Shown here one piece after another: positions 1-53,503 of a stretch of 64,000 bases of DNA. The notes beneath the pieces are model-generated. The model was not told the origin of the DNA. It did not search any database and was given only the letters and a program-made list of their open reading frames with translations. The position numbers and the translations under genes were made by a program. This DNA comes from Malania oleifera (Eukaryota; Streptophyta; Magnoliopsida; Santalales; Ximeniaceae), in assembly GCF_029873635.1 (NCBI RefSeq), contig NC_080423.1:90317191-90381190 (forward strand), read 5' to 3'. Every line of letters begins with the position of its first letter. The first letter of the stretch is position 1.

Positions 1-3000
1 TTCTTGTATTTATTTATTTTAATATTATAGTCGTCAATAAGCTCATAAACTCTTCTTTAAGATTTTTCATTTCAATTACTTCAATATCCTTGTATTAATT
101 GGGATAAGTGACTTTCCATATATTGAACAAGGATAAATTTTCTTCTTATATTTAAATTTGACTATGTTGAATCTTGTAGACTATTCCTAATATCTTTAGA
201 GTGAATTAGGCCTTTTATCTAGGTACCCATACTTTCTTGGGTCTAGATGGTTTAACAAGTATGTTTCTTTTATTCTCCAAACTTGTCTGATTTTTACACC
301 CTTTTTTTTAAATGGACATTCAAACTTAATGTGTCCTTTCTCTTTACATAGAAAACATGTAGTATGTGTGTAAGCATTTGAGGAGGTGCTAGCATAGTCT
401 TTCGAGGCTTTTGCAAAGTACCCCATGTAGAAGTTCTTTTTCCTTGTGTTCTCAACTCCATTGAATCTTACACCTTCTTTATTCAAGAACATTCTTTGTG
501 CGCCAATCATTTTATCAAGATTTTCTTTTCCTTTAGTGAAGTTGTAGATGATTTTGGCTTGATCCTCAATTTTTCTCTTAAGATCACAGATTTCTGAGTT
601 TTTTTATATTTTTACCCTTTTCTTAATTTTGAGACATTTTGCTGATTTTGTTTTCTAGTTCAGAAATATATAGATCTTTCTCATTATCAATGGAAGTTTG
701 GGATCTTAGATCTTCCAATTCTTTCATCACCTTTTCATTCTTGCTTTCTAATCTCTTTATTTTTAAATTCTTTTTTTCTTTCAGCAAGATTTTTAGATTC
801 TAATTCTTTCATTACAACTTCATTCTTATTTTTCAATGAAGTGTGTCGTTTAGTTACTTTAACTAGAATTTTATGAGCCTTGAATAGTTCATTTTGTAAT
901 TCTTCATAAGATGACATACTCTCATCATTGGATTCATCAGATTATCAAGATTCATTGCATGAGTCATTTAATGATTTGGATATAAAACTTTGTTCTTCAT
1001 CATCGTCCCATGCCATAAAGCAAGTATAAGCAACCTCTTGGTTACTTGATTCACTTTCTGAATTATTAGAACTTATATTGTCCCACGTAGTTACCTTCAT
1101 TGCCTTTTTCTTTTTCTTCTTAGAATCCCTCTTAAGCTGTGGATAATCCGGTTTAATATGCCCAACTTTCTTACAATTATAACAAGCAGGGGGGTTCATT
1201 TTTAGTTTCCTTTTTACTTATTTCCTTTTCATTTGATTTGGAGTCCCTGAATTTTCTTATAAAATTTATTCTTCTTTCTAAGGATTTTTACAAGTTTCTT
1301 GGTTATGAAGGCTATATCATTTACATCCATCACTTCTTCATCTTCATCATTAGAGCTTTCACTTGAGGCTTTAAAAGCAATTGATTCCTTGTTTTTAAAT
1401 TTTCCACTTCTTTCGTTTATTGTCATCTCATAAGTGATTAGAGAACCTATTAATTCATCTAGGGAGGTGTTTTTTAAATTTCTTCCTTCAGTTATTGTAG
1501 TGGCCTTAGGTTCCCAAATTGGTGGAAGTCCTCTAAGAATTTTTTCAGATCATTTCATATGTTGAGTAATTCCTTCCTAAGGCATTGAGGGAGTTTATTA
1601 TGTGGGAGAACCTAGTGTTCATACTAAGGATGGTTTTATCCGGGTTCATCCTAAAAGCCTTATACTCGCTTGTGAGCATGTCGATTCTATTATCTCTAAC
1701 ATCAACCGTTCCTTCATAGGTTACCTCTCGTTTATCCCATATTTCTTTAGCTGATTTACATGTCATGACCCTATTGAATTCATAGCACTTGAATTTACTT
1801 GCAACATCTTATGGTCATTGTCGGTCATCTCTTTTTCCTCTTTAACTATTTCTTTGTTATCCATGTTTTTGGTAGGGACAAGGTTACCATGTGTAACGAC
1901 TTTTCAAGCTTTCCAATTCATGGTTTGCAGGTATATCCTCATTTGTTGTTTTTAAAAAGTATAGTTCACACCGCAAAAGAGGGGTGGTCTATAAGAGGAT
2001 TGACCTTCGGCAAAGGGAGATACACCTAGGTGTGCCATAGAAATCTTTATATAGCTTCTAAATTAAGATTTGCTATAACCCTGCTCTCATACCAATTGAA
2101 AAGTAAGGTGTACTCCCAAGGAGGGGGGTTAATTGGGATTTAAAAATTTCTTTGGAAATTTTAATCTAGTATAACCCTTTTAAGTTAATTACAATCAAAA
2201 CTCAATTTAATTTGATATTGATATAATTATTATCAACCACCTTATTTATATTACCCAATAATCAATATGATGTTATCAAGTCAATATATTTGAAAGTCAC
2301 TCATGATCTCAACAAACTAGCTTTAATAAAGTAATTCACTTTACAAGATTAAACTCAACAACTCCATAAGTACAACCAACTATCCTTTGTATGATTAGAT
2401 AATGTCTCAATCAAATTTAATCCTGTATGGATGAACAATATCAGTTTGTCAAAATTCCTTTCAGCTGTGACATTCAAAATCAAAGAATTACTTCTTGAAT
2501 ATGTCAATCCAATCAAAAGGATAAACTTGATTTTACAATATAAAACAAATCAGAAATTTTAGCAAGCTTTTAAATTTGATTTCCGCAAAGATCAATCAAT
2601 GTAGTCCCTTTTTGGTTTTTGCAAAGATTAATCAACGTACTCTCGTTACAATTCCCAATCACAAGTTAGTTTTCTCAAATTAAACATTTATCCACGCAAT
2701 TTATATATGTGCAGGAAATTAAAGAGATTTAGGAAAAGAGAGAGACATAAGGATTTTTACGAGGTTCGGTTATACCCGCCTATGTCCTCGCTTTAGGCAA
2801 CACACCTAAGGATTACACTATACCACTCCTTTACGGGCGGAGCAAACCTTTACAACACTCCTTCAATAGGATAGAGCACTCCTCTCCAAGCGATACCTCA
2901 TGCTCGGTACACTCCTTCAACTAGGGTGGAGCCCCCTCTCCAAACGATACCCGACGCTCGGTACAACGATTCAACAATCCTGAACCATCAAGAAAATCAA

Positions 3001-5096: not shown

Positions 5097-6408
5097 CTTC
5101 ATTCTAGCTTGTTTTGATGATAACAACCCATTCAGTGCTTTTTTGATTAACTGATATTTTTCCTCAAGTTCAGTTCAAATAAACAGGATAATACCAAAGC
5201 AAGCATAAGGATAAAATGTACCTCTATGAAATAATGGGCCAAAGCATGCACAAGGAATACTCAAGGCACAACCAACCAAAGTCAACATAAAGTCTTATAT
5301 GTATAATGGATTATGAGTGAGGTAGAATATTCCTGTAACTCTTGAGGCATGATGTTGATAAGAATACTTAGCAAGAGTTGAGCAATTGCATCTGCATGAT
5401 AGTTTTATGATATCATTAAAAAACTCAATAAGTTTTCAAATATGCTTTTACAAGATATCCTATACCTAAACAAACTTTCATAAGGACAAGTTTTAAACAA
5501 GATTAGTATTTTGATAACTCACAAACTTGGTCCCCATTTTGTTTAAACAATGGTTAAACACCCAAAGGAAATGGATCAAATCAAGTGCTTAGATGGTCTT
5601 TTAAAAAGGGTCCGTCCTACAGAAAACCATCGACAATTTGGGAACAGTTCAGCCATCGACGATTTGGACCAAAATATGGCCATCCTATAGAAAATCGTCA
5701 ACGATTTTGTAGAAAGGCAGACTCTAATAAATGTGCTAAAACGACTAGTTTTTTTTTTTATTTGTATTGCCTCATTAAATGCCCAATGGCTAACCAACGG
5801 CTATTTCATCTCCTTGGCCATAAATATACTCCTTTAACATTCATTAATACATTGATTGAGCACTTATTATTTGAGAATTTAGTTAAAGCATTCATTCTTG
5901 TTTCCACTTGCTCAAAACTCTCTTACTACTTACTCTTGTCTACATATCATTTGTTGAAAGAGAGTAGTGTGGGGTTTTATTTGTATCATCAGCTCAAGTA
6001 TGAGCATCATCTTGTAATCTTTACATTTGTTGTTGCTTGTATACCTTAAAGTTTCTTGGTGAGCTTTCGTTAAGGTGATTCTTGGTGAACACCTAGTTGA
6101 GGCTCTCGATGAGCAGCTGGGTTGTGTACCCTTGCTGTAAAGGTTTCTTTAGCTTAAAAGGAGATTCTTTAGTAGATTTTGGAATCCTTGGCTTAGAGCT
6201 AAGGCGTGGACGTAGGCTTGGAGCCGAACCACATTAAATTTCTGTGTTGTGCTTCTCTCTCCCTTATGTTGTTATTTGTTGTGATTATTTGTTTTGTCTT
6301 TCATTGTGATGTTTTTCACTTGCTTCTTACCAAAGCTTTTATTTTGTAGCAATCTTTATTGTTCGCAATGAACATCTATTCAGCCCCCTTTAGGAGCACA
6401 CTAGGGTC
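5097..6408 (+). mobile_element. Copia-type LTR fragment, plus orientation
   Basis: It starts with the common LTR-start phrase TTTTGATGATAACAA near 5112. It contains a TCGACGAT-type palindrome cluster (5620-5705) and the leader hairpin motif GTGGACGTAGGC...CCAC (6206-6232). It ends with a CCCCCTTTAGGAG-like terminal motif near 6390. No primer-binding site or coding sequence follows, so it is a solo LTR or a truncated copy. The right edge runs directly into the residual LTR of the next element. The 154-codon open frame across it (5585-6049) is not a gene. Confidence 0.6.
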
Positions 6409-17600: not shown

Positions 17601-19834
17601 ACATTTAACTAATCTTTGGGCATTTATTTTCTTCATCCAAAGCTTATACTCTCACTTTTTTTTTTTTTTTTGTGAAAATTTATTTTTGAGAGTTAGCTTC
17701 TTGGATCTCCCATATATTTTATTAATAAATATTATTAGGAGAAATTTTATATTAGTTATTTTTGAAAGAGTTGAGCACATATAATTTGTATTAGGAAAGT
17801 CTTATTGCAATCGTTCTTACACTCACACATACTATTTTTGCAAGTTCATTTGTAAGTAAAAACCCTAAATTCTCCTGCACTTTATCTGCGAAAAATATAT
17901 TTGGAGAAATATTTTGTTAGGGTTTAAATCCTTGAGCTTCCATCATTATATTTTTATTTAAGGATTATTTTAGTAAGAAAATCATCATACTTACATTAAG
18001 CTTCATTTCATATCATATGTGAGACACATCTGCTTAGCATAGAAGCATTCTTTGTTGTATGAAAAATATTTCATTTGATTATCTATTGTATTGGGTTGTC
18101 GGAAGAGGGAGACTAGCCCTGTGAATAGTCTCAGATTTGCTTAGATCCGGTTAGGAGAGCACCATACTGGTTCAAATCTGGTTAAGAGAACTAGGTGCAT
18201 CATCCTAGTAAGGTGTTGTAAAGGTTGAGGTCAGCCCTATTAATCTAACCTGGGTATTCCCTTACCCAGTAAGGAGAGGGAGGTTGTAAACGGTATCGCT
18301 CCACCCACAAGTGAGCAATCTTAGAAGAATAATTTTACTTATGAGCTTGAGATGGGGACGTAGGCAGTATTGGCTGAACCCTGATAACATATCTAGTGTA
18401 ACTTTTATTTTTTTGCACTTTCAATTTCTGCACATGTATGTTTTATGTTTGATTTATTATGTCCAATACATCTATTTAATTGTTTGAATATTTAATTAAG
18501 TTTATGATTATATAGAAAGATCCTACGCTTGTGTAATACTGTTTGTGGAATTTGGATTGACTTAGGAGAAAAGTTTTAAATACCAAATTCACCCCCTCTT
18601 GGTAATACACCAATTTCAACAACCGAGCACAATTCATATCATAAGATAGTGCATGTATTTGAGCTTTTAACGTGTACATTCCTGCTTGTACTTAAAAATA
18701 TTGCATTATGTACAAAAATGATTTTAATGTACTGGTTGGGCTCAGCCCGAAATTGAACTGGGGAATCTTAGCCTTGTAAGTGAGACTGATTCGGTTTAAC
18801 CTAGAAATTGAACTGGGGTGTCTCTGCCCCGTAAGGAGACCAGTTGGGCTCAACCTAGTAATTGAGTTGGGGTTTACCTTGCCCCGTAAGGATAGGTTGT
18901 AGCGGCTTTGCTCTGCCCTTTTAAGTAAACAAGGATAGTGAAATCTTTGGAGGGTTATGCCCAAGGCGGGAACATAGGCTGGTTTGGTTGAACCTCGATA
19001 ACAAATATCGTATGTTGCTCTCTCTGTCTCATTTATATTTCTACACTTAAATTTTCGCATGTGTATGCTTTCATTTATAGTTATAATTATTTGCATGCAT
19101 ACTTCTATTTCAAATGAGATATCTTGTTGGCTTTATGGGAAGTCAGCAGTCAACCGTGTTACGAGAAATCGTAGCAATAGGCCCCAACTCAACAGTGCAT
19201 GGCATGCCAGCCCATCGGCACCCTTGCTTGGAATTGGTGCAACCCTTCATGTCCACCCGATGCTTAGTGTGAGGCTTTGCGTTGCCATTTAAAGGAAAAA
19301 GTTACACCTCTTCTACCACCAATTGGTTTTAGAAGAACCGGTAGTGTTTAATCTTGACAAGTGGTATCAAAGCGAAGTCACGGGTTCGAGCGCTCCTAGG
19401 GTAGCTTCTGGGGGTGATTGTTGGCTTTATGGGAAGTCAGCAGTCAACCTTGTTGCGAGGGATCGTAACAGTGGGCGATAGTGCTTGGCGTGCTAGTCTG
19501 TCGACACCCTTGCTTGGAATTGGTGCAGCTCCTCATGTCCACCCAACGCTTAGTGTAAGGCTCTGCATTGTCGTTTAAAGGACTCTTCTATCACCAATTG
19601 GTTTTAGAAGAATCGGTAGCTCTTGATCCTAACATATGTTTTACGTGTATGCTTGCATTTATCGTTTTATTAATTACATACACGTTTGTATTATGAATGT
19701 GATATGAACTGTAGAGAATCAATATAAATGTTTAAATTAGTCGAAATATTTTTAAAACTCAATTTGCCCCCTCTCTTGGGATCACACCAATTCCAACACG
19801 AAGCTTGACCGAATCGAGTAGACATGCATTGTAC

Positions 19835-32631: not shown

Positions 32632-35311
32632 TGTTGGAATTGGTGTGATCCCAAGAGGGAGGTGAATTGGGTTTTAAAATATTTTTTACTAATTTAAACA
32701 ATTACAATGATTCACTACAGTTCATATCCCATTCAATATTGAAAATGTGTATGTACAATGACAAGGTTATCAGTGTGTGCATACATACACATGTGCTGCA
32801 TATCTCATTAAAATTAGTTTTGTGTGCATGCAAGATGGTTATAATAAAACATGTACAAGCATACACATACTGGAATTTAAGGGCAGGAACTTAAATAAGA
32901 TAGAGAGATGAATGACACACATACTTGTTAATGAGGTTCAACCAATATTGCCTACGTCCCCGCCTTAGGCATATCTCCCAAGGATTCCACTAAACCTGCT
33001 CACTTAACCGGGCGGAGTAAAAGCCTTTTACATCCTCTCCTTATGGAAAATCCCAGCTCAATTACTAGGCTGAGCCGAACTAGTCTCACTTACGGGGCCG
33101 AAACTCCCCAGTTCAATTTCGAGCTGAACCCAACCACCACGCCTTACCAGGATGACACACCTAGCTTTCCTAACTGGGTCTAAGCTAATCTGAAACTCTT
33201 CACGGGGCGAGTCTCCCTCTTCAAGCCACGCCTGGAATACACATATATTTAATAGAATTTGCGTACAAATAAATGCTCTAAAACTAAGTAAGGATGTACA
33301 ACATTAAAATTTAATATGCACTCTTATATGATTTTGAGATGAAGCTCATGTAAAGTATGGGTTTTCTCTCAAAATATTTTTTCAAGTAAAACTTGAGAGT
33401 TTGGAAAATGATTTCTTTTCTAAAATGATCGACCTTTTCAGATTCAAATCAAAAGGCTACCAAGCAAAAATGAATATATGCTTTAGCCTTTCCTTTTTTT
33501 TTTTTCAAGAAGTTTTTCAAGCCAATATATATTAATGAATATATGTTCAAAGCTTTTAAATAACCCAAAGAGTTTCTCCAAAAATATACTTCAAGATAAG
33601 TAGGAGAAACTAGGATTTTGCTATCAAAATGATTGATTTTATAAAATAAAAGAAAAAGTCTCTCAAGCAAGTATATATTAAATTGATATATGCTCAAGGC
33701 TCCCTCTTGTATAACCCAGAGAAATTGTCCAACAAATATATTTCAAGATAAGGGTAGGAGAATATCAGGATTTTCTTCAAAATGATTAACCTTAGTAAAA
33801 TTAATCCCAAGAAGGCATTCAAGCAAAATATATAAGCAAGAATATTAGCCCAAGCCTTCAAGACATTATTCACAAGGAATTTCTCCAACAAAAATATTTT
33901 TCCAAATAAAAAAATATGGGAGAAATTTAATCTTTGAAAACATGAAAAATAGAGAGGCCTTCAAGCAATATACATATAGAGAATGTTATATGCTCAAGCC
34001 TCTTCAAATATAACCCCAAAAATATTTTCCTCAAAAATGGTTTTCAAAAGAAGAGAATAGGAGAAATTTTGATCTTTGACAATATATCACAAATGAAAGA
34101 AGAAGGTCATCAAGCAATATATATGTATATGATATATGCTCAAGCCTCTTATCATAAAATCCCCAAGAATATTTTCTCCCAAAATGATTTTCAAATAAAA
34201 GAATAATAGGAGAAAAATGAGAATTTAAAGAACAAGTGGGGTATGAAGTGTGGGAGAATCATAGAATGATAAACTAAATTAACAAAGGGTTTCTCCAACA
34301 ATTTTCAAGTATTTTGGAGTTGTATTTATAAGCAAAAACCCCTTGTGACCAGTATATAGTTGTTGGGACCTTAAAATATGTTTTTATTTTGAAAACTAGC
34401 CATTTTTCGGCCGTTGGGACGTCTTCCTGAGAAGGTCAGTTGACCAAGCTCAAGGTTCAGTCGACCGAGGCTTGAAATCCGCGAGCTTCGATTGACCGTA
34501 ATGAAGGTTCAGTCGACCGGCCTCGACTTTTCTACGCGGACACTGTTCAGTGTTTTGGCCATAACTTTTTATATATAACTCTAAATTCGATTTTCTTGAT
34601 GTCAATAGAAATATAATAGAAAATACCACAAGGTTTATGTTGAACACATTTTAATATAAGAAGTTTTAGATTAATAAAAATGCCCATCAGTGGGATGAAA
34701 GAAACATGAAGGAGGTTTTTCTGTTACGGACCCCTTTCCGTTTTTTAGCCATAACATTTTGTGTGTAACTCCAATTTGAACGTTCTTGGTATCAAACAAA
34801 AGATAAGGGAAAATTCCACAATTTTTATGTTGAACATATTTTGAGATGAGATCAAAATTACTAAGAAAATTGTTCATTTCTAACATTCAGTCGACTAGCC
34901 GGTTGACCGACCCCTTTGAAAAATTTAGTTTTTTCCTTCTTTTAACTTTAAAACCATTTAAAAACCTTTTTATAAGTTAGACATTTTATGAAAATGGTTT
35001 TTCATGTTACTTGGAGGTCCTATGGTCAATCTAAGGTCAGGTAAAGTTTTAATTTAAATCATGTAAGATGCATGCACATTTAACCCTAATTACTATTATA
35101 ACCCAGAAAATAAATAAAGTTTTTATGTCTTCTGCTCCTTAATGCTCCATGGAATATGCCGATTGGTGTTCTTCTTAGTGCTTTTTACGACTTGCATTTT
35201 GCATTCATAACTTGTGTTTACAGAAATATAAACCTGTTCACACTCAGTTACACAAGTGGGATACAGTGGTTTGTCATTATCAAAATAGGGATCGGACTCA
35301 GAAAGTCAATA
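32632..35311 (-). repeat. 3' LTR of the non-coding element
   Basis: It runs from TGTTGGAATTGGTGTGATCC to a CAATA terminus. It holds the leader hairpin (32933-32961), five degenerate units of about 150 bases (33517-34260), a TATA box on the minus strand (34330-34323) and a few GTCGACCGA palindromes upstream of it (34430-34530, 34890). Confidence 0.88.
33517..34260 (-). repeat. Five degenerate tandem units of about 150 bp in the LTR leader (copy 1)
   Basis: Units begin TCAAGC(A/C)A at 33517, 33663, 33819, 33961 and 34110. Each carries an ATATATGCTCAAGCC-like segment, a run like TTTCTCCAACAAAAATATTT and a GGAGAAA block. The same array, with spacings differing by at most 1 base, is at 40072-40800 in the partner LTR. 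Confidence 0.85.
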
Positions 35312-36082
35312 ATCTCCCCTTTTTGATGATGACAAACATAGAAGCAAAATTGGGATTTCCTGATAAGGTTCCCCCTTACAATATGCATAAATTCAAAATG
35401 ATATTAAAAAAATCTCAATCATAAACATGAAGACTTCACAATCAAGTTGACAATTAAACTCAGTGATTCAATGTGCAGTTTATGTTTGAGGCTATTTTAA
35501 CAAAATATTCAAGTTTGTGCATTTGTCATTTTCCATTTTGAATAACAAAAGGCAGAGGCAGAGAGATAAAAGGGGTTTATAATTTTTCTCAAGAAACATC
35601 TCCCCCTTTTGTCATCAACAAAAGGGCTAAACTGAGTAGAAAATAATTTTATCATTTAAAATATACTCAGGAAAGAGAACTCCCCCTTTTTTAAGAAAAG
35701 AAAAACTCTCCCCTTATGTGATATAACAGTTGGGCATAAAAATTTTAATACTGTTTAAAAGATATAACCAGTAAGCATACAGAATAGTTTAACTGACTAT
35801 TTAAAAGGTTAAAATGACATATAAACAAGGTTAGACCATAAGCATGCACAAATTGTTTGCAATTTAAACATATCATATAACCCGTGGAAGATTTGAGTTA
35901 AAGGCATACGACATATGATACCAAAGGGAGGTTTGAGCATAAAAATAGTCTAATAAGTTTACATGCATTTTCATATGAAATTACCGAACCAGTTATGCAA
36001 TTTTATAACTCATATGTATATAATAATAATAATAAGGCAAGAGAAAAAGTTCTAGTTTTAAAATAAGTTCTTGCCATAAAGT

Positions 36083-36125
<43 letters not shown>

Positions 36126-38348
36126 CCTTATAATGTTTGCTTAAAAAACTGGGGGTTTATGGATATTAAATAAATTTAAGAATGGGGATCATATGGCAAA
36201 ACCCAAAACACTGTAGCAAACAAAATATTTTTATTTATTATATTCAATGAAGACATTACAATTAAGCACAAGCCACAATGAATTCAAAAACCAATTCTAA
36301 GCTAGAAATGTTGTGAGCACAACAAGATAGAAAAATAATTTTTAGGTGCTCCCCCAATCAATGTGAATACTTATATTGATATAATTTGTGAAAGTCCAAA
36401 TAGTATAAGTATTAATTTCAAATTTTACTCGATATGTGTTAGTCGAATATATTTCACTAGTAAAATGTTCCTAAACACACATACATTAAATATCAAGTAC
36501 TAAGTCATGCATGGTGTTCATGTGTACCCAAAACAAACCATATCAAAGATGTTTAGCAGAGACAGGATATGATGTTCAAGGTATTTAGAAAGGCTTCACA
36601 CTTAAAAAGTAGAAACAATAGAAATAATGTGAGTCCATGGGTCAGGTGATTCTTATCCTTTTTCAAGGATAAGTCTTAACCTCCCCGGTATAGTCTCAAG
36701 TATACAAAAGTGTATTAACGTTCAAGGGTGGATTTCATTTAAGCACACTCAACACATGTTCATTCTTCTAAATATTACTTAGCATGCAAGAGATTATAGG
36801 CATTAAGTTCATTTTCCTTAAAAGTGGGGCTTAAACTCTCCCTGTATATTTGCATGCATACATACTTGTATTAAGTTCAGGATAGTCATTCAAGAACATT
36901 CCTAAAAAATTCATCCTTTCAAAAGATTTTCAGCATGTAACAAATATAGACATTTAGCACATACTAGCATGACATATTGCATTTCAATTTTAATACACAA
37001 TAGACAAACAAGACTATACTCAAGGGTAATGCAATAGGGGTTCAATAAGGATGACACAACTCAAAATTCACAATGGTGTGTGTGAAATGAAAAACTCCCC
37101 CTAATTCATGCAAATTCCTTATTCAATGGACCATCATCAAAATATGGGGCGTTCAATTTAAAAGGGATGATGCTCTACCATTTGGGTCCGTAGTGAAAGT
37201 ACATATCCCGAGATTAGGACCGAATGGTGTCCATGAACTAAGTTTTTCCTAAGTCCATAAAATGTGTACATGTTTTTAGTTCTGCACAAACCAATAGGAT
37301 TCTACATGTACAAATCTATTTAATTATCTAGCAACCTAGGAAATGACATGAAGATTGTGCATGTCTTTCTGTATTAAACATATACCATTTAAAATTTAAC
37401 ATGCACAAGTGGACGGTTCAGCATACACCTATAAGTAAGGATGAAAATTAATATTCTTTTATGATTCACTCATCCTTTCAAAAATATTTTAGCATGCATT
37501 ATATTATTATCCTAATACATGGTTTCATTTTTGAAAAAAAAAAAAAAAACCACTGAAATTTTGGCAGCATTTCGATTGTAAATTGAACATTTTCCCATTT
37601 TTCCATGTACCTAAATCCGGATAGATTCACACAATCAACACATGATAATTCAATTTAAGCATGCGAGAACCTATTTCCACTACCAGCATGCAATTCCCAT
37701 CAATTGCATCCGCCATGTAGGAGGCATTCTAGACTAAGCATGCAATCAGGTAGTTCAATCAATATATCACATAAAATATAAACTATCCATACGAGGATAT
37801 AATCATCAGGCAAGTGATGGATAGTGACATTCAGCTCAAAGCAGATCAAATTTAAAGAATATCCATCCATCAGAAAATATATTCATTTAGCACACATGGA
37901 TATTTGCATTCAGCTCATACAAAACATCCAATATATATGAAATAATAAGCACAATACAACAAAATGCATATTGGATGAATTTTCAAAACATATTGCTCCC
38001 CCTTAATTGTGCAATCAAAAAATTTTATATTCAATAATAGTATTTGGAATAACAAATTTTTCGAATATGGGGATGAGCTTTAAGTTCCATTGTAAATTTA
38101 GGGCTATATGATATATATAATGTTAATTCCCTAAACACAAAATCTGTGTGAAGGACAAGTCATGCTATATTTAAGATTTTTAAATTTAGGCATATATAAC
38201 ATCAAAAATCATATAACAATTAAAACATTTTGCCCATTTGAATGAGATTTATTTAAATATGCTTATGAGGTTTAACTTAAGAACTAATAATGATATAAGC
38301 ATGCACTAGCCAACATTATCATATATTAACCAATCATAATTATATGCA

Positions 38349-38407
<59 letters not shown>

Positions 38408-39180
38408 CTTAGATTTGATAAGATCATTAAAACTTACATATTGGCTAGATTTTCTTAGGGTTCTCAAAATGGTCATAGTGTATATTAAGGTTTGGAATTT
38501 TAAGCATTATACACTATTTAGGCATTTAAAGTATTCTAACCCTATGTACAACAATTTCTAAGATCTTATAAGTATAAGAAATTTCCTTGAAATATTTCTC
38601 ATAAGATGACATGCAAGCAATATCCAATATATCATGATTCATAAAAATTTAACACAACACAAGTCATACAAATCATGACATAGAATTTTCAACAAAGTTG
38701 AAGGAGAAAGATATACCTTTACAATTTACTCCTCCATAATAGTTCATGCTCAGAGTGGAGTCTTTTTCTCTCTTAATTTCTCAAAATCCTTATGATTCCC
38801 AAAATCCTTAGCACATAGAAGAATATACACTCATAAAAGCATTAGTGACTAAGGCACAGTAAAAGTATGCATGGCACTCAAATGATATGTATTGAAACAC
38901 AAGTCATGCAAATTTAATTCATTTTCAAATTTTGGGAAATTTGCAATTTGAAAACATTTTCAATGGTATATGATATGCATGACAAACACTTTCCAAATCC
39001 TCCAATCATTTGATTTTACAAAATTATTTTCGATAATCACATGGTAAAATCTATGCAATAAAACCAATGGAGGATTTGTAAGGCACTGACCCTCAAAACA
39101 GGGATACACCGAAAAATGAGTCGTTGCAATCTTTATGCAAATAGCGGTTAAGCTTATTGAAACTAGGCTCTGATACCAAT
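35312..39180 (-). other. Internal region of the non-coding element
   Basis: About 3.9 kb, AT-rich, without a credible open frame. On the plus strand it repeats CTCCCCC-type tracts at about 35313, 35601, 35682, 36122, 36353, 37094 and 37988 (polypurine on the element's coding strand). It has AT microsatellites at 36091-36122 and 38349-38403. It shows a fairly even scatter of TTTAGCATGCA-like words. Confidence 0.75.
38349..38403. repeat. (AT)n microsatellite
   Basis: About 27 uninterrupted AT units inside the non-coding element. A shorter run lies at 36091-36122. Confidence 0.95.
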
Positions 39181-41867
39181 TGTTGGAATTGGTGTGATCC
39201 CAAGAGGGGGGTAAATTGGGTTTTAAAATATTGTTTACTAATTTAAACAATTATGCCGATTCACCACAGTTTATATCCCATTCAATATTGAAAACGTGTA
39301 TGAACAACGACAAGGTTATCAGTGTGTGCATACATACACGTGTGCTGCATATCTCATTAAAATTAGTTTTGTGTGCATGCAAGATGGTTATAACAAAACA
39401 TGTACAAGCATACACATACTAGAATTTAAGTGCATGAATTTAAATAAGATAGAGAGATGAATGACACACAAATTTGTAAACGAGGTTGGGCCAATACTAC
39501 CTACGTCCCCGCCTTGGGCATACCCCCTAAGGATTCCACTAAACCTGCTCACTTAACCAGGCGAAGCAAAAGCCTTTTACATCCTCTCCTTACGGGGTGA
39601 GGAAAACCCCAGCTCAGTTACTAGGTTGAACCGAACTAGTCTCACTTATGGGGCTGAGACTCCCCAATTTAATTCTAGGCTGAACCCAACCATCACGCCT
39701 TACCAAGATGACGCACCTAACTTTCCTAACCGGGTCTAAGCCAATCCGGGACTCTTCATAGGGCAAGTCTCCCTCTTCAGGCCACGCCTGGAATACATAT
39801 ATATTTAATAGAATTTGCATACAAATAAATGCTTCTAAACTAAGCAAGGATGTACAACATTAAAATCTAATATGCACTCTCATATGATTTTGAAATGAAG
39901 CTCATGTACAGTATGACTTTTCTATCAAAATATTTTTTCAAGTAAAACTTGAGAGTTTGGAAAATGGTTTTCTTTTTTAAAATGATAAACCTTTTCAAAT
40001 TCAAATCAAAAGGCTACCAAGCAAAAATGAATATATGCTTTAGCCTTTTTTTTTTTTTTCCAAGAAGCTTTTCAAGCCAATATATATTAATGAATATAAG
40101 TTCAAAGCTCTTAAATAACCCAAAGAGTTTCTCCAAAAATATACTTCAAGATAAGTAGGAGAAACTAGGATTTTGCTATCAAAATGATTGACCTTTATAA
40201 AATAAAAGGAGAAGCCTCTCAAGCAAGTATATATTAAATTGATATATGCTCAAGGCTCCCTCTTGTATAACCCAAAGAAATTCTCCAATAAATGTATTTC
40301 AAGATAAGAGTAGGAGAATATAAGGGTTTTCTTCAAAATGATTGACCTTAGTAAAATTAATCCCAAGAAGACATTCAAGCAAAATATATGAGCAAGAATA
40401 TTAGCCTAAGCCTTCAAGACATTATTCACAAGGAATTTCTCCAATAAAAATATTTTTCCAAATAAAAAAATATGGGAGAAATTTAATCTTTGAAAACATG
40501 AAAAATAGAGAGGCCTTCAAGCAATATACATATAGAGAATGTTATATGTTCAAGCCTCTTCAAATATAATCCCAAAAATATTTTCCCCAAAAATGGTTTT
40601 CAAAAGAAGAGAATAGGAGAAATTTTGATCTTTTAAAATATATCACAAATGAAAGAAGAAGGCCATCAAGCAATATATATGTATATGATATATGCTCAAG
40701 CCTCTTAACATAAAACCCCCAAGAATATTTTCTCCCAAAATGATTTTCAAATAAAAAAAGAGTAGGAGAAAAATGAGAATTTAAAGAACAAGTGGGGTAT
40801 GAATTGTGGGAGAATCAAATAATGATAAACTAAATTAACAAAGGGTTTCTCCAACAATTTTCAAGTGTTTTGGGGTTGTATTTATAGGCAAAAATCCCTT
40901 GTGACCATTATATAGCCGTTGGGACCTTAAAATATGTTTTTATTTTGAAAACTAGCCTTTTTTTGGCTGTTGGGACGTCTTCCTGAGAAGGTCGGTTAAC
41001 CAAGCTCAAGGTTTGGTCGACCGAGGCATGAAATCCGTGAGCTTCGGTTGACCGTAATGAAGGTTCGGTCGACCAGCCTCGACTTTTCTGTACGGACACT
41101 GTTTAGTGTTTTGGCTATAACTTTTTCTATATAACTCCAAATTGTATTTTATTGATATCAATAGAAATATAATAGAAAATACCACAACGTTGATGTTGAA
41201 CACATTTTAATATAAGAAGTTTTAGATTAATAAAAATGCCCATCAATGAGATGAAAGAAACATGAAGGGGGTTTTTCTGTTATGGACACCTTTCCGTTTT
41301 TTAGCAATAACTTTTTTTGTGTAACTCCAATTTGGACGTTCTTGGTATCAAACAAAATCTAAGGGAAAATTCCACAATTTTCATGTTGAATATATTTTGA
41401 GATGAGATCAAAATTACTAAGAAAATTGCTCATTTCTAACATTTGGTCGACTAACTGGTTGACCGATCCCTTTGAAAAATTTAGTTTTTGCCTTCTTTTA
41501 ACTTTAAAACCATTTAAAAACCTTTGTATAAGTTAGACATTTTATGAAAATGGTTTTTCATGTTACTTGGAGGTCCTGTGGTCAATCTAAGGTCAGGTAG
41601 AGCTTTAATTTAAATCATGTAAGATGCATGCACATTTAACCCTAATTACTATTACAACCTAGAAAATAAATAAAGTCTTTGTGTCTTCTACTCCTCAATG
41701 CTCCATGGAATACGCTTATTGGTGTTCTTCTCAGTACTCTTTATGACTTCCATTTTGCATTCATCACTTGTGCTTACAGAAATATAAACTTATTCACACT
41801 CTGTTACACAAGTGGGATACTGTGGTTTGTCATTATCAAAACATGGATCAGACTCAAAAAGTCAACA
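39181..41867 (-). repeat. 5' LTR of the non-coding element
   Basis: It begins right after the primer-binding site complement (CTCTGATACCAAT). Features mirror the partner LTR: hairpin 39481-39511, 150-base units at 40072, 40219, 40375, 40517 and 40666, and TATA on the minus strand at 40886-40879. Confidence 0.88.
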
Positions 41868-42336: not shown

Positions 42337-43087
42337 ATTGGCTGATTTCTTTGTTTGAGTATTTATATATAATACATTTTGTGATACAATGATTCTATTG
42401 GTTTGCACTCTCACGCACTGATTACATCGATTGCAAATATATTTGAGAGTTGATATATTAAATCACATTGAGCACTTATTATATCTTATTGGTGGTGTAT
42501 GTGATTGTGTGTAACTGAGTACACATCTGCTTTGTATGAAAGCAAAATCACTGTACCATTTCACTGATTGTGAATATACTGTTGTATTTCCAGGCATGGG
42601 CCTGAAGAGGGAGACTAGTCTTTTGAAATAGTCTTGGATTGGCTTAAACCTGGTTAGGAAAGCTAGGTGCACCATCCGGGTAAGGTGTAGGTTGAGATCA
42701 GCCCCGCTAATTGACCTGATTGTAAAGGTTGAGGTCAGCCCTATGGTAATTGACCTAGTTGTAATCGGTGCCGCTCTACCCGTTAAGTAAGCCTTTAGTG
42801 GAATCCTCGGGTTTGCGAGCTAGAGGCGGGGACGTAGGCACATTTTGCCGAACCCCGATAACATATCGTATGTCTATTTATATTTTTGCACTTTATATTT
42901 ACTGCACGTGTATGTTATGGTATGAATGATGTGCATGATTTAAATTTCCGCATATTTTATTTATAGGCACGTTTGGAATTGTATAGAAAGACCCTAGGGT
43001 GTATTATACGACTATATCATTTACCCTAGGCGATAAATTTTAGAATTCCAGTTCACCCACCCTTTTGGGAATACATCAATTCTAACA
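41868..43087 (+). repeat. 5' LTR of the nested Copia derivative, second piece
   Basis: It resumes the LTR interrupted at 32631 and ends CATCAATTCTAACA at 43087, next to the primer-binding site. It includes a long AT microsatellite (42279-42335) absent from the 3' LTR, the leader hairpin (42827-42857) and the terminal CACCCACCCTTTTGGGAATAC motif. Confidence 0.85.
42279..42335. repeat. (AT)n microsatellite in the 5' LTR
   Basis: About 28 AT units. The matching place in the 3' LTR (about 52740) has only a short ATTTATATA, so the array expanded after insertion. Confidence 0.95.
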
Positions 43088-43142
43088 ATTGGTATCAGAG
43101 CCTCAATGCACTAGACTTAAACATTTTTACAAAAAGATCGCA

Positions 43143-43862
43143 ATGGCTCAATTTGGTGTATCCCCATTCGGTGAGGGACAGTCACCGTCTAGTCCTCCAT
43201 TGTTTTGTGGTGTCGATTACACCACCTGGAAAATTAGGATAAGCATATTTATAAAATCAATGGATTGGATGGCCCGGCGAGTGATTGTTAATGGGATTCA
43301 CATTCCCTTAAATGAAAATGATACTAGGTTAATGCATATGAATTCATGTGCCATGGACTTATTATACTGTGCTTTAGATTCTAATATTCTACTTGAGTTT
43401 ATGGCATGTTATAGTGTACAGGAAATGTGGGATGAACTAGAAAATAAATATGGAGAATCCCAGAAGAAGGAGATCGTAACTCCTCCAAATGCTCCAAGCT
43501 CAATTGATCAGGAGGAGGTCAATCATGAGCTTAAAATCAATGAGGAGGTATATGATATTCACTCTAGTTCATTTGATGATTTTTCTGCTGAATACTGTGT
43601 TGTTACACATGCTGAATCATCTATTAAACATAATGATAATTCTTTTAATATTGCATGTGTTGATTCATCTGTTGATTCCTATAATATATTTTGTTATGAA
43701 TCTTCAAATGTTTCTTTTAATGATGATGGTGCGAATGCATGCAATGATTCATGTGCTTTTCAATTTGATAAATCCTGTGATGAATCATTTGATGAGATGC
43801 CTTCATATGGAAAACTAGAAAAGACTTCATTTAAAATGCATAAAATCCTAGTTGAGATATAG
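43143..43862 (+). CDS. Gag-like open frame of the nested Copia derivative (239 codons)
   Basis: The frame starts MAQFGVSPFGEGQ shortly after the primer-binding site. Residues about 18-125 resemble the N-terminal region of Copia gag (LFCGVDYTTWKIRISIFI; MDLLYCALDSN; SVQEMWDELENKYGE). The rest is acidic and rich in serine, aspartate, asparagine and cysteine, with repeated short phrases such as SFDDF, DSSVDS and CDESFDE. It has no zinc knuckle and matches no Copia domain I know. The frame overlaps the start of the inserted LTR at its 3' end. It is part of a fossil element; whether a protein is made is unknown. Confidence 0.6.
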   Translation: MAQFGVSPFGEGQSPSSPPLFCGVDYTTWKIRISIFIKSMDWMARRVIVNGIHIPLNENDTRLMHMNSCAMDLLYCALDSNILLEFMACYSVQEMWDELENKYGESQKKEIVTPPNAPSSIDQEEVNHELKINEEVYDIHSSSFDDFSAEYCVVTHAESSIKHNDNSFNIACVDSSVDSYNIFCYESSNVSFNDDGANACNDSCAFQFDKSCDESFDEMPSYGKLEKTSFKMHKILVEI

Positions 43863-44965
43863 GTCACACCCGGTTTTGATAATGACAAATACTCATTATA
43901 TCCAATGGGTGTTTGAGGTTTTGTGTAGGAATTATAAGTGACAGATCATAATGCACAAAGAGAAGATCAAAGATTGAAGACCTAATGTCTATTGTATTGT
44001 ATTTCATATTCATTTATATTTGGGTCTGTAATATTTAAGTAAGAAAGGTCTGTAATAGTAAATAGGGCTGAAATGAGGAATAGCTTCCCAAGAGGGGGGT
44101 GAATTGGATTATTTTTAAATTTTAATGATTTTTTAAGCTATTGATTTTAATTACCCAGAAAACAAGATATATAAATGATAACTACACTTAAAAATACTAA
44201 AATTTAAATTCACGAGTCAATTAATGAAATCAACGCAATTCAATCACTCAACCAAAAATATTAGAGCTTTAGTTGATTTTTCTGTAAACTCTTAGTATGC
44301 ACTTTACTTGATCAAGATTTTTGCAGATTAACCAACGTACTCCCTTTTTGGCTTTCTGCAAATAATTAATCAAAACGTACTTTTTAAATATCAAGTACCT
44401 TTGTTTCTTTCTCACTTAAGAATCTGCAACCTGCACATTTAAATCATACCACAATAGCAAGTAAATAATATAAAGTAAAGCAGAGAGAAAGACACAAGAT
44501 TTTTACGAGGTTCAGCTTCAACACAGCCTACGTCCTCGCCTTTGGCAAAACACCAAAGGATTCCATTATATCAGTTCCGTTACCTGGTGGAACAATACCA
44601 ATTTACAACCACTCCTTCTGTCAGGCTAGAGCCCGCCTCTCCAAACAATAACCCCTTGTTTGGTTCAACGATTCAATAACTCTGAATCGTTTAAAAATGA
44701 TGATAAAGAAATTTGTGTACAAAAGAGAACTCTCATAATAGAGTAGATTAGTACAATGATCAGCTCACTTATACTCCAAAGTAATTCAAATATAAGAAAT
44801 TTGAAGCTCAACGTTTAGTATGAATTACCAAATGATTTTTCAAAGAAAATGAAAGATTCTGATTTTTTAAAGCTTTGCTTCAAAAAATATAAATCAATAT
44901 CACATCAGAAAGTTTAAGCACAAGAAAATTTTAGATCCTTTGAGAAATTTGAATATTTGAAAATC

Positions 44966-45400: not shown

Positions 45401-47816
45401 TTAACAAAAATATTTTTGATTTTCTATGAGCTTCAAACCACTTTATATTTGAGTTTAACCTTTGAAGTACTTCCATTAAGAACATCCTAAAATATAATTC
45501 TTTAATCTTCAGTCTTGTTCTTCCATCATCTTTATTGTTTCAATCTTTTATTTGAGTTTTTCACCAGTATAATTTTATTCCTCGTGCTCTTTGTAATCCA
45601 TAAGCTTTTCTTTGTGTTCTTCAAGGATTTTTTGTAATCCATAAACTATACTTGTGTTCTTCAAGAATTCTTTGTAATCCATAGGCTTCTTTATACACTT
45701 GGGCTTTGTCACTTTCCTGAAAAAATTTTACTTGAAACATATTAAACATATCATTGATTTGTTATCATCAAAATAAGAATTGTAAACCTTATTAGGCCAA
45801 CAAGGGTTTTGATTGTAATAATTGCATGCATCACTTGCATGACTTAATACATAAGCTCAACCAACACCGGATTTTTTCGGTGTCTTCAAAAGGACCCATA
45901 AATGACCCTAAGACACACACATTTGCACATATGTATGTTAGGCACTTGAAAAGGGCTTGTATGTTTCAAAATGGTACCGAAATGCACACTTTGTGCACTT
46001 TCGGTCGACCGAACCAAGTAGCTCATTCTGTCCTAGTTGATCGAACCAGACCTGGGTCAACTATTGACCAAGGTCATGGTCGACTAAACCTATGAAGTTC
46101 AAAACCCCCTGGTCGACCGAAACCTCTCTAAGTCAACATTTTGACCATCTAGTTGATCGACCCTTTTTGTACTCCAACTACTTGGTCAACTGAGGGTCCT
46201 CGGGAGAAATCCCAGCTGCCTGGTCGACCGAACCAGGCAGTTCAAAATGGCCTGGTAGACCGAACATCGAAAAATTGAGAAATTGCCCTCTCTTGGTCGA
46301 CCGAGCCCTCAGTTCAAAATTCCCCTCGTCGATCGAACCATATGAGACTTGGTTGACCAAAACATTTCTGGTCAACCGGACCTTTTGAGTTGCCCTAATT
46401 TTTACCGCAGTTAAATATTTTTTAAACGGGGTTAAAATACTAAAAACATCATTAAACTTTCTTAATAATACCCAATAGGTCTCCAACGGTCATATTTTCT
46501 CACATGTCTATATATATGAGATCATTTGTGAAAAAGGAAGTATGATTAGCCACTTTGATTAGGGGAGAATTCTCTGAAAACTCAAAAGCCTATACTACTC
46601 ATTTTTTAGCCTCATTCACTCAAACTTACCCTCTATTAGTGTCTAAATATTTGTAAGTGGATTAAGTGTCTGATTGCAAGGGTCTGCTCTCCTTGTTTTA
46701 TTTGCTTAACACGATTTTATTTGAGAGCAAAACCTAAGGATTCTTAGGGGACTTTGTTGATAAGTCTATCCTAAGAAGACTTTGTTAGATCTTCTAAGTT
46801 TGCACCTTCATTGCAATATTCTGAGAAGATCGTATAGTATTTTGTTTGCAAAATCTTTTCAAAATCATTTTCAAATATCTAGTGTGGTTTATATTGATAA
46901 ATATATTTGAAGAGATATTTGTTTATGAGATAGTGGTCTTTGTTGCAATATTCTTTCACTCATATATTATTTGTTGAATACAAAGATTACACATCTTTTG
47001 CAAACCAAACATATATTTTATTTGATAGTCACATGCTTGAGACTTCTTATTGATTGAAATACTTGAGACTTGACATCTTTGTGTGAACTTATTGGCTGAA
47101 TATCTTGTGATACAAAGATTACTTGTTTGACACTCTTATGTATGCATTACACTGATAGAAAATACTTTTGAGAGTTGAACCATCAAGACCACACTGAGCT
47201 TACATATTGAATCATATTGTGGTGTATGTTATTGCGCGTATTTAGGTACATATCTACTTTACACGAAAGCACAATCACTGTACCATTTGATTATATACAC
47301 ATTTGTTGTATTTTCAGGAACGGGCTTGAAGAGGGAGACTAGTCCTGGAATAGTCCCGAATTGGCTTAAACCCAGTTAGGAAAGCTAGGTGCGTTGTCCT
47401 GTTAAGGCGTGTAGGTTGAGGTCAGCCCCACTAATTGACCTGGTAAAGGTTGAGGTCAACCCTGTGTTAATTTGACCTGGTTGTAAACGATGCCGCTCCA
47501 CCCTTAAGCGAGTTATTAATGGAAACCTCGGGCTTGCGAGCTAGAGGCGGGGACGTAGGCACATTTGGCCGAACCCCAATAAAATATCATGTGTTCATTT
47601 ACATTTCCGCACTTCATATTTACCGCACGTATATGTTATTATGTGAATGATGCGTTTGATTTAATTTCCACATCACTTTTATCTACGCATTAGGAAATTG
47701 CACAGACAAACCCTAGGTCGTGTATATATCGCCATTGGATAGATTTACCTAGGAGAAAAAGTATAAAATTCCAATTCACCCCCCCCCCCCCTCTTGGGAA
47801 TACACCATTTATAACA

Positions 47817-51412: not shown

Positions 51413-53503
51413 TGTTGACCCTATGGGTCATACCCTGTTTTGATTATGACAAATACTCTGGTATTTAATGTCTGTTGAGTTTATGTGTAGGTATACTGAT
51501 TGGCAGATCATAATAATGGCACAAGGAATTGAAGTTGAAGACCCAATTTATGTTGTATTTAATTTCATTACTCTTTAAGGGTCTATAATAGTAAATAGTG
51601 CTTGGCTTGTAATAATCATATGCACCACCTGCATGATACAATAGGTAAGCTCAAACTAAAAAGGGTAAACTCAAGACCGTAGTTGGACCTTAGGGAACAC
51701 CCTTTGGTCTACCGAAGTCGATCGACACTGAATTTTTTCGGTGTCCTAAAGAAGGCTTATAAATGACCCTAGGATACTCACTCATGCATACACATATTTT
51801 ATTATTTGAATTGGGGTGTTGGTTGGATGAAACAGGACCGAAATGCACAAAATGTGCACCTTCGGTCGACCGACCTATGTAGTTCATTCTGGCCCCAGTC
51901 GACCGAACCTAGTCTGGGTCAACAAGTTGACCATAGTCTAATCGACTGAACTGTATAATTCATTTGGCCTCGGTCGATCGAACCTCCTAGGAAGTCAACA
52001 TTTTGACTTTCTAGTCGACCGAACACTTTTTGTATTGTACTAACCTGGTCGACTGAGTTCCCACATGTGGGAACCCAGTCTGATCGACCGACCACTATAA
52101 TTCAAAATGACCCTGGTCGACCAAACCTTGCAAAATTGAAAAAATCGCCTAGGATATACATGTCCAGTTGACCGAACCCGCAGTTCATTTTTGGCCCGGT
52201 CGATCGAACCCCAAGAACTTGGGTCGACCGAACTTGTCCTAGTCGACCGATGCTCTCGAGTTGGACCTATTTTTTTACCATGGTTAACTTGGTAAAACGG
52301 GGTTAAGGTAATTAAAAATCATTAAAACTTATTTAATTATTCCAACCATGTCCCTAACGGTTATATTTCAGGGGTAGTCTATAAATACCCCCTCATTTGG
52401 AGTAATTAGTAAGGGATTAACAATCTTAATTAAGAAAAATTCTCTGAAATTTCCAAATCCCATAATACTCATTTCTAAGCCCCATTCACTCATTGCAACA
52501 TCTTGAGAAGCTCGTATTTTATTTTGGTTGCAAAATCTTATCAAAATCATTTTCAAATATCTATTGTGTTTTATCTTGAAAAATATTTGAAGAAATATTT
52601 TTTTATGAGTTAAAAAATCTTTGTGGCAATATTCATTGATTTATATCTTTTGTTGGATACAAAGATTAAAATTCCTTTTGCAAACCCAATTTATACGGTG
52701 CTTAAGCTTTATATTATTGAGAAGATCTGCTAGTTGAAATATTTATATAAGGATTGGCTTATATCTTTGTTTGAGCATTTATATTCAATACATTTTGTGA
52801 TACAATGATTATACTGGTTTGCACTCTCACGCACTGATTACATCGATTGCAAATATATTTGAGAGTTAATATATTAAACCACATTCAGCTTACTTATTAT
52901 ATCTTAATGGTGGTGTATGTGATTGCGCGTAACTAGGTACACATCTACTTTACATGAAAGTATAATCACTGTACCATTTCACTGATTGTGAACATACCGT
53001 TGCATTTCCAGGCACAAGCCTGAAGAGGGAGACGAGCCCTTTGAAATAGTCTCGGATTGGCGTAGACCTGACTAGGAAAGCTAAATGTACCATCCTAGTA
53101 AGGTGTAGGTTGAGGTCAGCCCCGCTAATTGACCTGGTTGTAAAGGTTGAGGTCAACCCTGTGGTAATTAACCTGGTTGTAATCGGTGTCACTCCACCCA
53201 TTAAGTGAGCTTTTAGTGGAATCCTCGAACTTGCGAGCTAGAGGCGGGGACATAGGCACAGTTGGACGAACCCCGATGACATATCATGTGTCTGTTTACA
53301 TTTCTGCACTTTATATTTACCGCACGTATATGTTATGGTAAGAATGATGTGCATGATTTAAATTTCTGCATATTTTATTTTTAGGCACATTATGAATTGT
53401 ATAGAAAGACCCTTGGGTGTATTATACGGCTATCTCATTTACCCTCGGCGATAAATTTTAAAATTTCAATTCACCCCCTCTTGGGAATACACCAATTCTA
53501 ACA
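51413..53503 (+). repeat. 3' LTR of the nested Copia derivative (2091 bp)
   Basis: It runs from TGTTGACCCTATGGGTCATA to CACCAATTCTAACA. It keeps the palindrome cluster (51705-52255), TATA box (52380-52386) and hairpin (53245-53275). It lacks about 200 bases present in the 5' LTR between 41868 and 42040. Confidence 0.9.

Follow-up and report, generated by a model that had tools for sequence, protein, structure and literature searches.

The small RNA hairpin H2 recurs in the long terminal repeats (LTRs) of plant Copia elements, and our analyses support the view that its fold is maintained by selection, with compensatory changes in its stems; that H2 is a selected RNA structure in the leader we regard as very probable. 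The hairpin has an outer stem of at most 5 bp, an internal loop (ACGTA/GAA), an inner stem of 3 to 4 bp, and a free apical loop. There is good support for placing it in the LTR, 5' of the tRNA-iMet primer-binding site (PBS) and on the strand of that site, and it most likely lies in the transcribed leader (R or U5). The best explanation, to which we give a probability of about 0.5, is that H2 is a cis-acting hairpin of the Copia transcript whose loop would be docked by a protein, most likely Gag/nucleocapsid or the reverse-transcription complex.

H2 and its neighbor H1 in the window

The window is the whole stretch of DNA analyzed, 64,000 nucleotides. A preliminary description placed ten copies of the hairpin in it, and reading both strands confirmed all ten positions and orientations. 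A search of the window with a covariance model, R1, constructed from 45 copies that all lie outside it, used default filters and an E limit of 1 and matched exactly these ten sites (E 5e-9 to 0.003). The copies are as follows.

42827..42857, plus strand: reference copy of H2 (R1 43 bits, E 5e-9)
42827-42831/42853-42857, plus strand: outer stem of the reference copy, CGGGG/CCCCG
42832-42836 / 42850-42852, plus strand: internal loop of the reference copy, ACGTA / GAA
42837-42839/42847-42849, plus strand: inner stem of the reference copy, GGC/GCC, closing the apical loop
47548..47578, plus strand: H2 copy, CGGGG/CCCCA (R1 41.4 bits)
53245..53275, plus strand: H2 copy, CGGGG/CCCCG, loop ACATA (R1 30.3 bits)
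6205..6233, plus strand: H2 copy, CGTGG/CCACA, inner stem GGCT/AGCC (R1 40.1 bits)
44506..44538, minus strand: H2 copy, CGAGG/CCTCG (R1 39.9 bits)
2760..2790, minus strand: H2 copy, CGAGG/CCTCG, loop ACATA (R1 31.8 bits)
32932..32962, minus strand: H2 copy of the minus element 41865-32631, in its 3' LTR (R1 41.2 bits)
39481..39511, minus strand: H2 copy of the minus element 41865-32631, in its 5' LTR (R1 33.4 bits)
18353..18383, plus strand: H2 copy, TGGGG/CCCTG (R1 33.5 bits)
18967..18997, plus strand: weakest H2 copy, loop ACATA (R1 21.1 bits, E 0.003); absent from the single-sequence fold

The last of these had already been called weaker, and its R1 match, at 18966-18998, is indeed the lowest. 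The exact motif pair of the strict pattern occurs twice in the window and in none of 100 dinucleotide shuffles; with a shorter gap, the exact motif has one further occurrence, at 6208, and the remaining copies have mismatches. RNAalifold recovered H2 unprompted on two different alignments, one of them that of the ten window copies. The minimum-energy fold has the exact H2 shape in four of the ten (6.2, 42.8, 44.5, and 47.5 kb), and the folding z-scores of the ten range from -3.1 to +0.6.

Several particulars of the preliminary description needed adjustment. Its outer stem (GGGG/CCCC and variants) is present, but extends to as many as 5 bp (CGNGG/CCNCG) rather than four. The ten sites stand; however, they had been counted as ten LTR copies, and those at 32.95 and 39.50 kb belong together as the LTR pair of a single minus-strand element flanked on either side by AAACT, so that at most nine independent insertions are represented. 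Compensating changes had been reported across the ten LTRs: one H2 pair (42829/42855 in the reference copy) is altered on both sides (GC 4, GU 3, AU 2, UA 1), but it is the only such pair, and H2 covariation among the ten copies is marginal, 15 of 500 shuffles being as high. Wobble forms had been offered as evidence for pairing and had to be set aside, since C to T at CpG yields wobbles for free. The earlier case for H2 from ten copies is correct in direction and thin.

A second hairpin, H1, absent from the preliminary description, lies directly 5' of H2; RNAalifold predicts it together with H2, unprompted, on the ten copies.

42805..42826, plus strand: reference copy of H1 (RNAalifold, covariation)
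47526..47547, plus strand: H1 of the 47548 copy (alignment/fold)
53223..53244, plus strand: H1 of the 53245 copy, weakened (alignment/fold)
6186..6204, plus strand: H1 of the 6205 copy (alignment/fold)
44539..44559, minus strand: H1 of the 44506 copy, CCTTTGG/CCAAAGG (alignment/fold)
2791..2811, minus strand: H1 of the 2760 copy, CCTTAGG/CCTAAAG (alignment/fold)
32963..32983, minus strand: H1 of the 32932 copy (alignment/fold)
39512..39532, minus strand: H1 of the 39481 copy (alignment/fold)
18945..18966, plus strand: H1 of the 18967 copy (alignment only; not in the single-sequence fold)

At the H2 copy 18353..18383, H1 is mostly lost. Among the ten window copies, five H1 pairs are changed on both sides, and 0 of 500 shuffles were as high; covariation support within this set is stronger for H1 than for H2. 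When H1 and H2 are combined, 91.3% of cells pair in the ten copies, versus at most 55.7% in slid versions. H1 is not general: in the larger sample of 118 copies described below, a stem of at least 6 pairs is found in 62 (644 of 2360 among shuffles), and 41 have fewer than 5 pairs. Upstream of H1 (∼42590-42800 and equivalents), short stems can be paired by eye (CAGGC..GCCTG, GGGAGACT..AGTCYC, and GCTC..GAGC). A third upstream hairpin, H0, was inspected; it is absent from the RNAalifold prediction for the wider alignment, and we do not claim it.

Covariation of the stems and conservation of the internal loop

The genome from which the window derives (1.494 Gb) was scanned on both strands, with the backwards pattern as a control. 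The pattern GGACGTAGGCN{8,16}CCGAACC gave 5923 + 6020 matches versus 0 for the control. With the outer stem mostly free, ACGTAGGCN{6,16}GCCGAA gave 7566 + 7674 matches (control, 2 + 6), and with the inner stem free, GGACGTAN{10,22}GAACC gave 19685 + 20015 (39,700; control, 762 + 722, or 1,484). We sampled 109 distinct copies from 120 loci (L043-L162; the rest were the same places found twice) in the first 9 Mb of one contig, C1, in listing order except for L162, which was hand-chosen. L153, which lacks family resemblance, was removed, and the remaining 108 were joined with the ten window copies to give 118. The search fixed GGACGTA..GAACC in 85 of the sampled copies (set A) and ACGTAGGC..GCCGAA in the other 23 (set B); invariance of these letters within the sets proves nothing, because the search pattern imposed it. 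Flank identity divides the 118 copies among 34 clusters, and two of these account for 65 copies.

The clearest signal is at outer pair O3, which is a standard pair in 113 of the 118 copies versus 61.7 expected by independence (AT 40, TA 33, GT 22, GC 17). When the changes in each column were randomly re-placed on a FastTree tree, from which one identical row had been dropped, none of 1000 nulls reached the observed pairing or mutual information at O3. The majority pair at O3 is standard in 32 of the 34 clusters, the other two being one-to-one ties with a nonstandard pair, and T-A, which requires transversions on both sides, is the majority or tied pair in 20. Outer pairs O1 and O2 could hardly covary, because the searches fixed most of their letters; O4 and O5 showed no covariation in the 118 copies. 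Among the inner pairs, standard pairing was seen in 105 copies at I1 (101.3 expected), 111 at I2 (106.9), 108 at I3 (98.3), and 76 at I4 (53.7), and I5 pairs below expectation (36/84 versus 45.5). On the tree null, the mutual information of I4 (p 0.032) and the pairing of I1 (p 0.024) would lose significance once corrected for nine pairs and two measures; I2, I3, O1, O4, and O5 are not significant in 1000 nulls, and only O3 is clear.

A second alignment, A3, holds 45 copies hand-picked for variety over the clusters, not every cluster being included. Of its 392 pair cells, 87.2% are standard versus at most 39.5% in any slid version; 48 cells are double-changed versus 20.0 in shuffles (0/500 as high), and covariation is 0.377 versus 0.197 in shuffles and at most 0.108 when slid. 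Seven pairs carry a double change, a number that is unremarkable, as 121 of 500 shuffles reach it. Folding the 118 copies singly gave the first three outer pairs in 82 copies and the two stems together in 68, with a median z of -1.0.

Support for the inner stem rests mainly on a compensated swap. With the other letters fixed, the whole genome contains 131 copies with CC..GG, none with GG..GG, and none with CC..CC; the canonical GG..CC was not counted with identical anchors. The swapped stem reads CCTCAA/TTGAGG (for example, in L160 and L161). It represents one or few events, because the 100 of the 131 swapped copies that were listed resemble one family. Within this family (L163-L177 and further places), several places form same-strand pairs separated by ∼4.7 kb, the arrangement expected for the two LTRs of an element. 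The preliminary description had read covariation as the trace of selection on RNA structure, a reading that the 118 copies, the 34 flank clusters, the tree null, and the genome-wide swap together support; it had also staked its claim on significant covariation in a larger alignment, and such covariation is present at O3 (0/1000 tree nulls).

To look at the internal loop, one kind of stem (CGTGG/CCACG with GGC/GCC) was fixed and the loop left free, which gave 884 + 934 (1818) genomic matches and 0 for the control. Among the 100 matches listed, the 5' side of the loop is ACGTA in 61, ATGTA in 16, ACATA in 10, and other in 13, and the 3' side is GAA in 80, AAA in 17, and other in 3. Within the same 100, U stands at position 4 of the 5' side in 97 and A at position 5 in 95; on the 3' side, position 2 is A in 100 and position 3 is A in 99. 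Single CpG transitions account for 26 of the 39 altered pentamers in these matches, and the CpG transition to AAA accounts for 17 of the 20 altered trimers. Because genomic copies are mostly dead, CpG methylation decay is expected to give one-sided changes of G-C to G-U and of ACGTA to ACATA or ATGTA, and the loop changes appear to match it, as expected; the ATGTA loop may in addition be characteristic of a family, that with CCAATTTT-type loops. Stems that drift around an internal loop held nearly constant are the sign of a recognition site. The loop-E/bulged-G (sarcin-ricin) motif has GUA opposite GA as its core, and H2 shares with it such a core flanked by Watson-Crick stems. By sequence, the counts for this core among the 100 matches listed are G 83, U 97, A 95 and, opposite, G 81, A 100. 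H2 is likened to the motif by sequence alone, and its loop, ACGUA/GAA, has one 5'-side nucleotide more than usual.

Two explanations would dispense with a selected RNA fold. If there were no selection, shared ancestry and CpG decay of a few amplified families would have to mimic covariation; 65 of the 118 copies do fall in two clusters, the wobbles and the ACATA and ATGTA loops are mostly CpG transitions, the ten window copies covary marginally, and O3 alone clearly beats the tree null. The T-A pairs at O3, however, need two-sided transversions, occur in 20 of 34 clusters, and were matched by no tree null, and decay cannot produce CC..GG with both half-swaps absent, so that we consider this account highly improbable. 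Pure CpG decay was rejected, since transversion pairs and the inner-stem swap are required. The alternative at the DNA level, to which we give equally little credence, treats GGACGTAGGC as a transcription-factor site with an ACGT core, whose pairing is the by-product of a near-palindrome. ACGT is a known bZIP core and the motif is conserved in sequence, but the stems vary and yet stay paired across a variable apical loop, slid pairings collapse, and one family has a swapped inner stem of which neither half-swap occurs. A transcription-factor site was rejected as the whole explanation, because the stems covary.

Position within the LTR and the host element

The elements behind and around the hairpins of the window give the following landmarks.

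43090..43101, plus strand: primer-binding site TGGTATCAGAGC, following the LTR end; the GGACG start lies 260 nt upstream
43089..43859, plus strand: Copia-type gag reading frame behind the PBS (PF14223, E 1.6e-5, 24.9 bits, just under the 27-bit cutoff)
32631-41865, minus strand: element with LTRs 32631-35309 and 39180-41865 (2.7 kb, 92.5% alike), flanked by AAACT on both sides

TGGTATCAGAGC stands directly behind two window LTRs, at 43090 (plus) and 39178-39167 (minus), and the distances from H2 to the PBS in these two copies are 260 and 330 nt. The minus-strand element has 3.9 kb of internal DNA with no listed stop-to-stop frame of at least 120 aa and is possibly nonautonomous. Near the LTR ends (43050-43069 and equivalents) is a C-rich stretch of the ATTCACCCCC..CTCTTGGG kind, which resembles the integrase signal outlined for Sireviruses in the portion of the article available (PMC2829016). 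Elsewhere in the window, ACACGTAGGCTGAAAAGACTGAACC lies within a longer inverted repeat, TTAGTCGACTGA..TCAGTCGAC, at 16942-16990 (plus), which has no R1 match and is probably unrelated; 27648-29414 (minus) carries other retroelement fragments (RVT_1, Integrase_H2C2), probably of Gypsy type.

Position was also examined starting from the PBS, with no hairpin required. The first 20 of 4715 genomic places with an LTR end and PBS, on C1, were taken with 469-490 bases upstream. R1 matched 14 of these 20 LTRs (E up to 0.0012), all 14 on the sense strand, and 6 gave no match; R1 is not fully independent of this sample, as L179, L182, and L189 overlap the training copies L085, L065, and L138 and others share training families. 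A simple hairpin score of at least 15 was reached in 13 of the 20 LTRs, 0 of 20 reverse complements, and 4 of 500 shuffles, and by eye H2 is recognizable in 16 of 20, 101-293 nt before the PBS. Starting from the hairpin, a PBS with at most one mismatch was found downstream in 11 of 63 distinct 3-kb loci, at 101-931 nt, versus none upstream and 3 antisense anywhere; the remaining loci are probably 3', solo, or decayed LTRs. Nine of the 11 PBS-bearing loci were taken further, and the reading frames behind hairpin and PBS contain PF14223 Copia gag in eight of the nine.

A place between the TATA box and the LTR end had been proposed. The part of this claim that concerns the PBS is well supported, upstream and on the same strand; a position downstream of a TATA box is supported for only part of the copies. 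TATAAATA lies upstream of the hairpin in 19 of the 63 loci, 13 of the 21 boxes standing at 486-613 nt, mostly in one large family, and one at 183; the same loci hold 8 sense boxes downstream of the hairpin and 32 antisense boxes anywhere. In the window, the 2.8-kb copy is preceded at 515 nt by an uncertain TATAAA-type box, and the 53.2-kb copy by another at 868 nt, which is separated from it by a self-alignment break at 52490.

Proposed function and relation to known elements

H2 looks like a dock for a protein, because the module floats ∼100-300 nt before the PBS, its internal loop is kept, and its apical loop varies. The ACGUA/GAA loop, closed by G-C pairs, would form a non-Watson-Crick platform that is rigid and probably resembles loop E (bulged-G, core GUA/GA). 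A protein would dock on this platform, the likeliest partner being the element's own Gag/nucleocapsid or reverse-transcription complex, and docking might then select the full-length RNA for packaging and for priming with tRNA-iMet. Granted a selected leader structure, packaging or Gag docking is the foremost single use, at somewhat less than an even chance; a host factor for export, stability, or translation is possible but doubtful, the reverse-transcription complex is unlikely, and something else is improbable. In our ranking, Gag packaging precedes a host factor, and a host factor reverse transcription. The preliminary description had named packaging, dimerization, or translation, rightly labeling these roles as inference. 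Dimerization through the apical loop is disfavored and was rejected, since the apical loops are variable; no shared palindrome was seen by eye.

The host-factor alternative, in which a plant RNA-binding protein on H2 would favor export from the nucleus, RNA stability, or translation without taking part directly in packaging, is a tentative one that we think rather unlikely. H2 is common to many Copia clusters and to Citrus LTR primers, as would be expected of a conserved host protein versus a fast-evolving Gag, and in the 16 recognizable copies its distance before the PBS (101-293 nt) would put it inside a leader; nothing in these sequences, however, ties it to any host protein, and the Copia gag in eight of nine frames fits either partner. 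Leader and U5 structures assist priming or strand transfer in retroviruses and Ty elements, and H2 might similarly position the tRNA-iMet primer or aid first-strand transfer. It does lie upstream of the PBS, on the same strand wherever a PBS was found, and in some families only ∼100-130 nt away. Its distance from the PBS nevertheless varies (101-293 nt in the recognizable copies, 260 and 330 nt in the window, 101-931 nt in the 11 loci), and because of this variation a modular site fits better than a fixed complex; we regard a reverse-transcription element as unlikely.

We put forward, as a speculation we would sooner doubt than accept, that most plant Copia elements share one ancient leader module, a loop-E-like loop between drifting stems, read by Gag or by one conserved plant protein to select RNA. 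Recognition of the loop across families by the Gag of one of them would, if it occurs, explain the packaging in trans of nonautonomous elements. Copia elements make up a large share of many plant genomes, and an RNA feature recognized for their packaging is hardly known; a 31-nt module that occurs in strongly diverged families, matches the genome tens of thousands of times, and has just two stems and one loop to probe makes packaging recognition directly testable. The H2 RNA model also marks strand and leader region in LTRs that otherwise share little sequence.

Searches beyond this genome were as follows. Rfam gave 0 matches at gathering score in the window; on six loci at E up to 1 it gave 13, every one of them a microRNA model that scored below gathering and fell at L181 102-188, apart from the L181 hairpin at 368-401. 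Pattern scans of viral contigs returned 33 and 1 matches, none Copia-LTR-like by eye and their count near chance by a rough estimate; the PBS pattern matched twice in viral contigs. A pattern scan of genome contigs returned 6 records, all bacterial or MAG by title. No description of the H2 hairpin was found in the literature searched, most subscription journals being outside its scope. In a Citrus marker paper, as far as its available text goes, parts of the motif are found in four of 28 LTR primers; the inner stem is covered by two of them (GACGTAGGCTAAAAGCCGAACCA and GTAGGCGGGGATTGCCGAACCA), and the other two extend to the outer arm CCACG, whose partner is not visible (PMC7876178).

The comparison with known systems brings out what is particular to H2. 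Retroviral leaders carry packaging and dimerization hairpins (psi, DIS/SL1), and H2 resembles these as a small leader hairpin near the PBS of an LTR retroelement. It differs from them in its fixed internal loop, its place inside the LTR, and its variable apical loop, in which no shared palindrome is visible by eye; where DIS has a conserved self-complementary apical loop, the apical loops of H2 differ between families in length and sequence, as judged by eye with no statistic. Among plant Copia LTRs, Sireviruses offer a likeness in that motifs are conserved in otherwise unalignable LTRs. The accessible sections of PMC2829016 describe palindromic CGG-CCG boxes upstream of the TATA box, an inverted repeat at the PPT, and, close to the end of the LTR, a C-rich integrase signal; none of the motifs described there corresponds to H2, and the CGG-CCG palindrome of the RM box is absent from H2 sequences. 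Hidden Markov models of plant Pseudoviridae LTRs likewise capture conserved LTR parts in the Sire and Retrofit groups, with TATATA, CAACAAA, and TGTAA motifs and no such hairpin in the part of the paper available (PMC3601003). The ENE of Arabidopsis Copia93/Evade is, like the role proposed for H2, a functional RNA fold that aids the mobilization of a plant Copia element; as set out in the available extracts, it follows the reading frame and precedes the downstream LTR, and its U-rich internal loops form a triple helix with poly(A), whereas H2 has ACGTA/GAA instead of a U-rich loop, lies upstream of the PBS, and does not belong to the ENE class (PMC12501189). In the main text of a study of barley BARE2, the words "hairpin" and "stem-loop" are absent (PMC3735527). 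That source, in the portion available, invokes packaging and dimerization signals in a plant Copia leader for the packaging of BARE2 RNA by BARE1 Gag, and it is to these signals, by their description, that H2 may be likened (PMC3735527).
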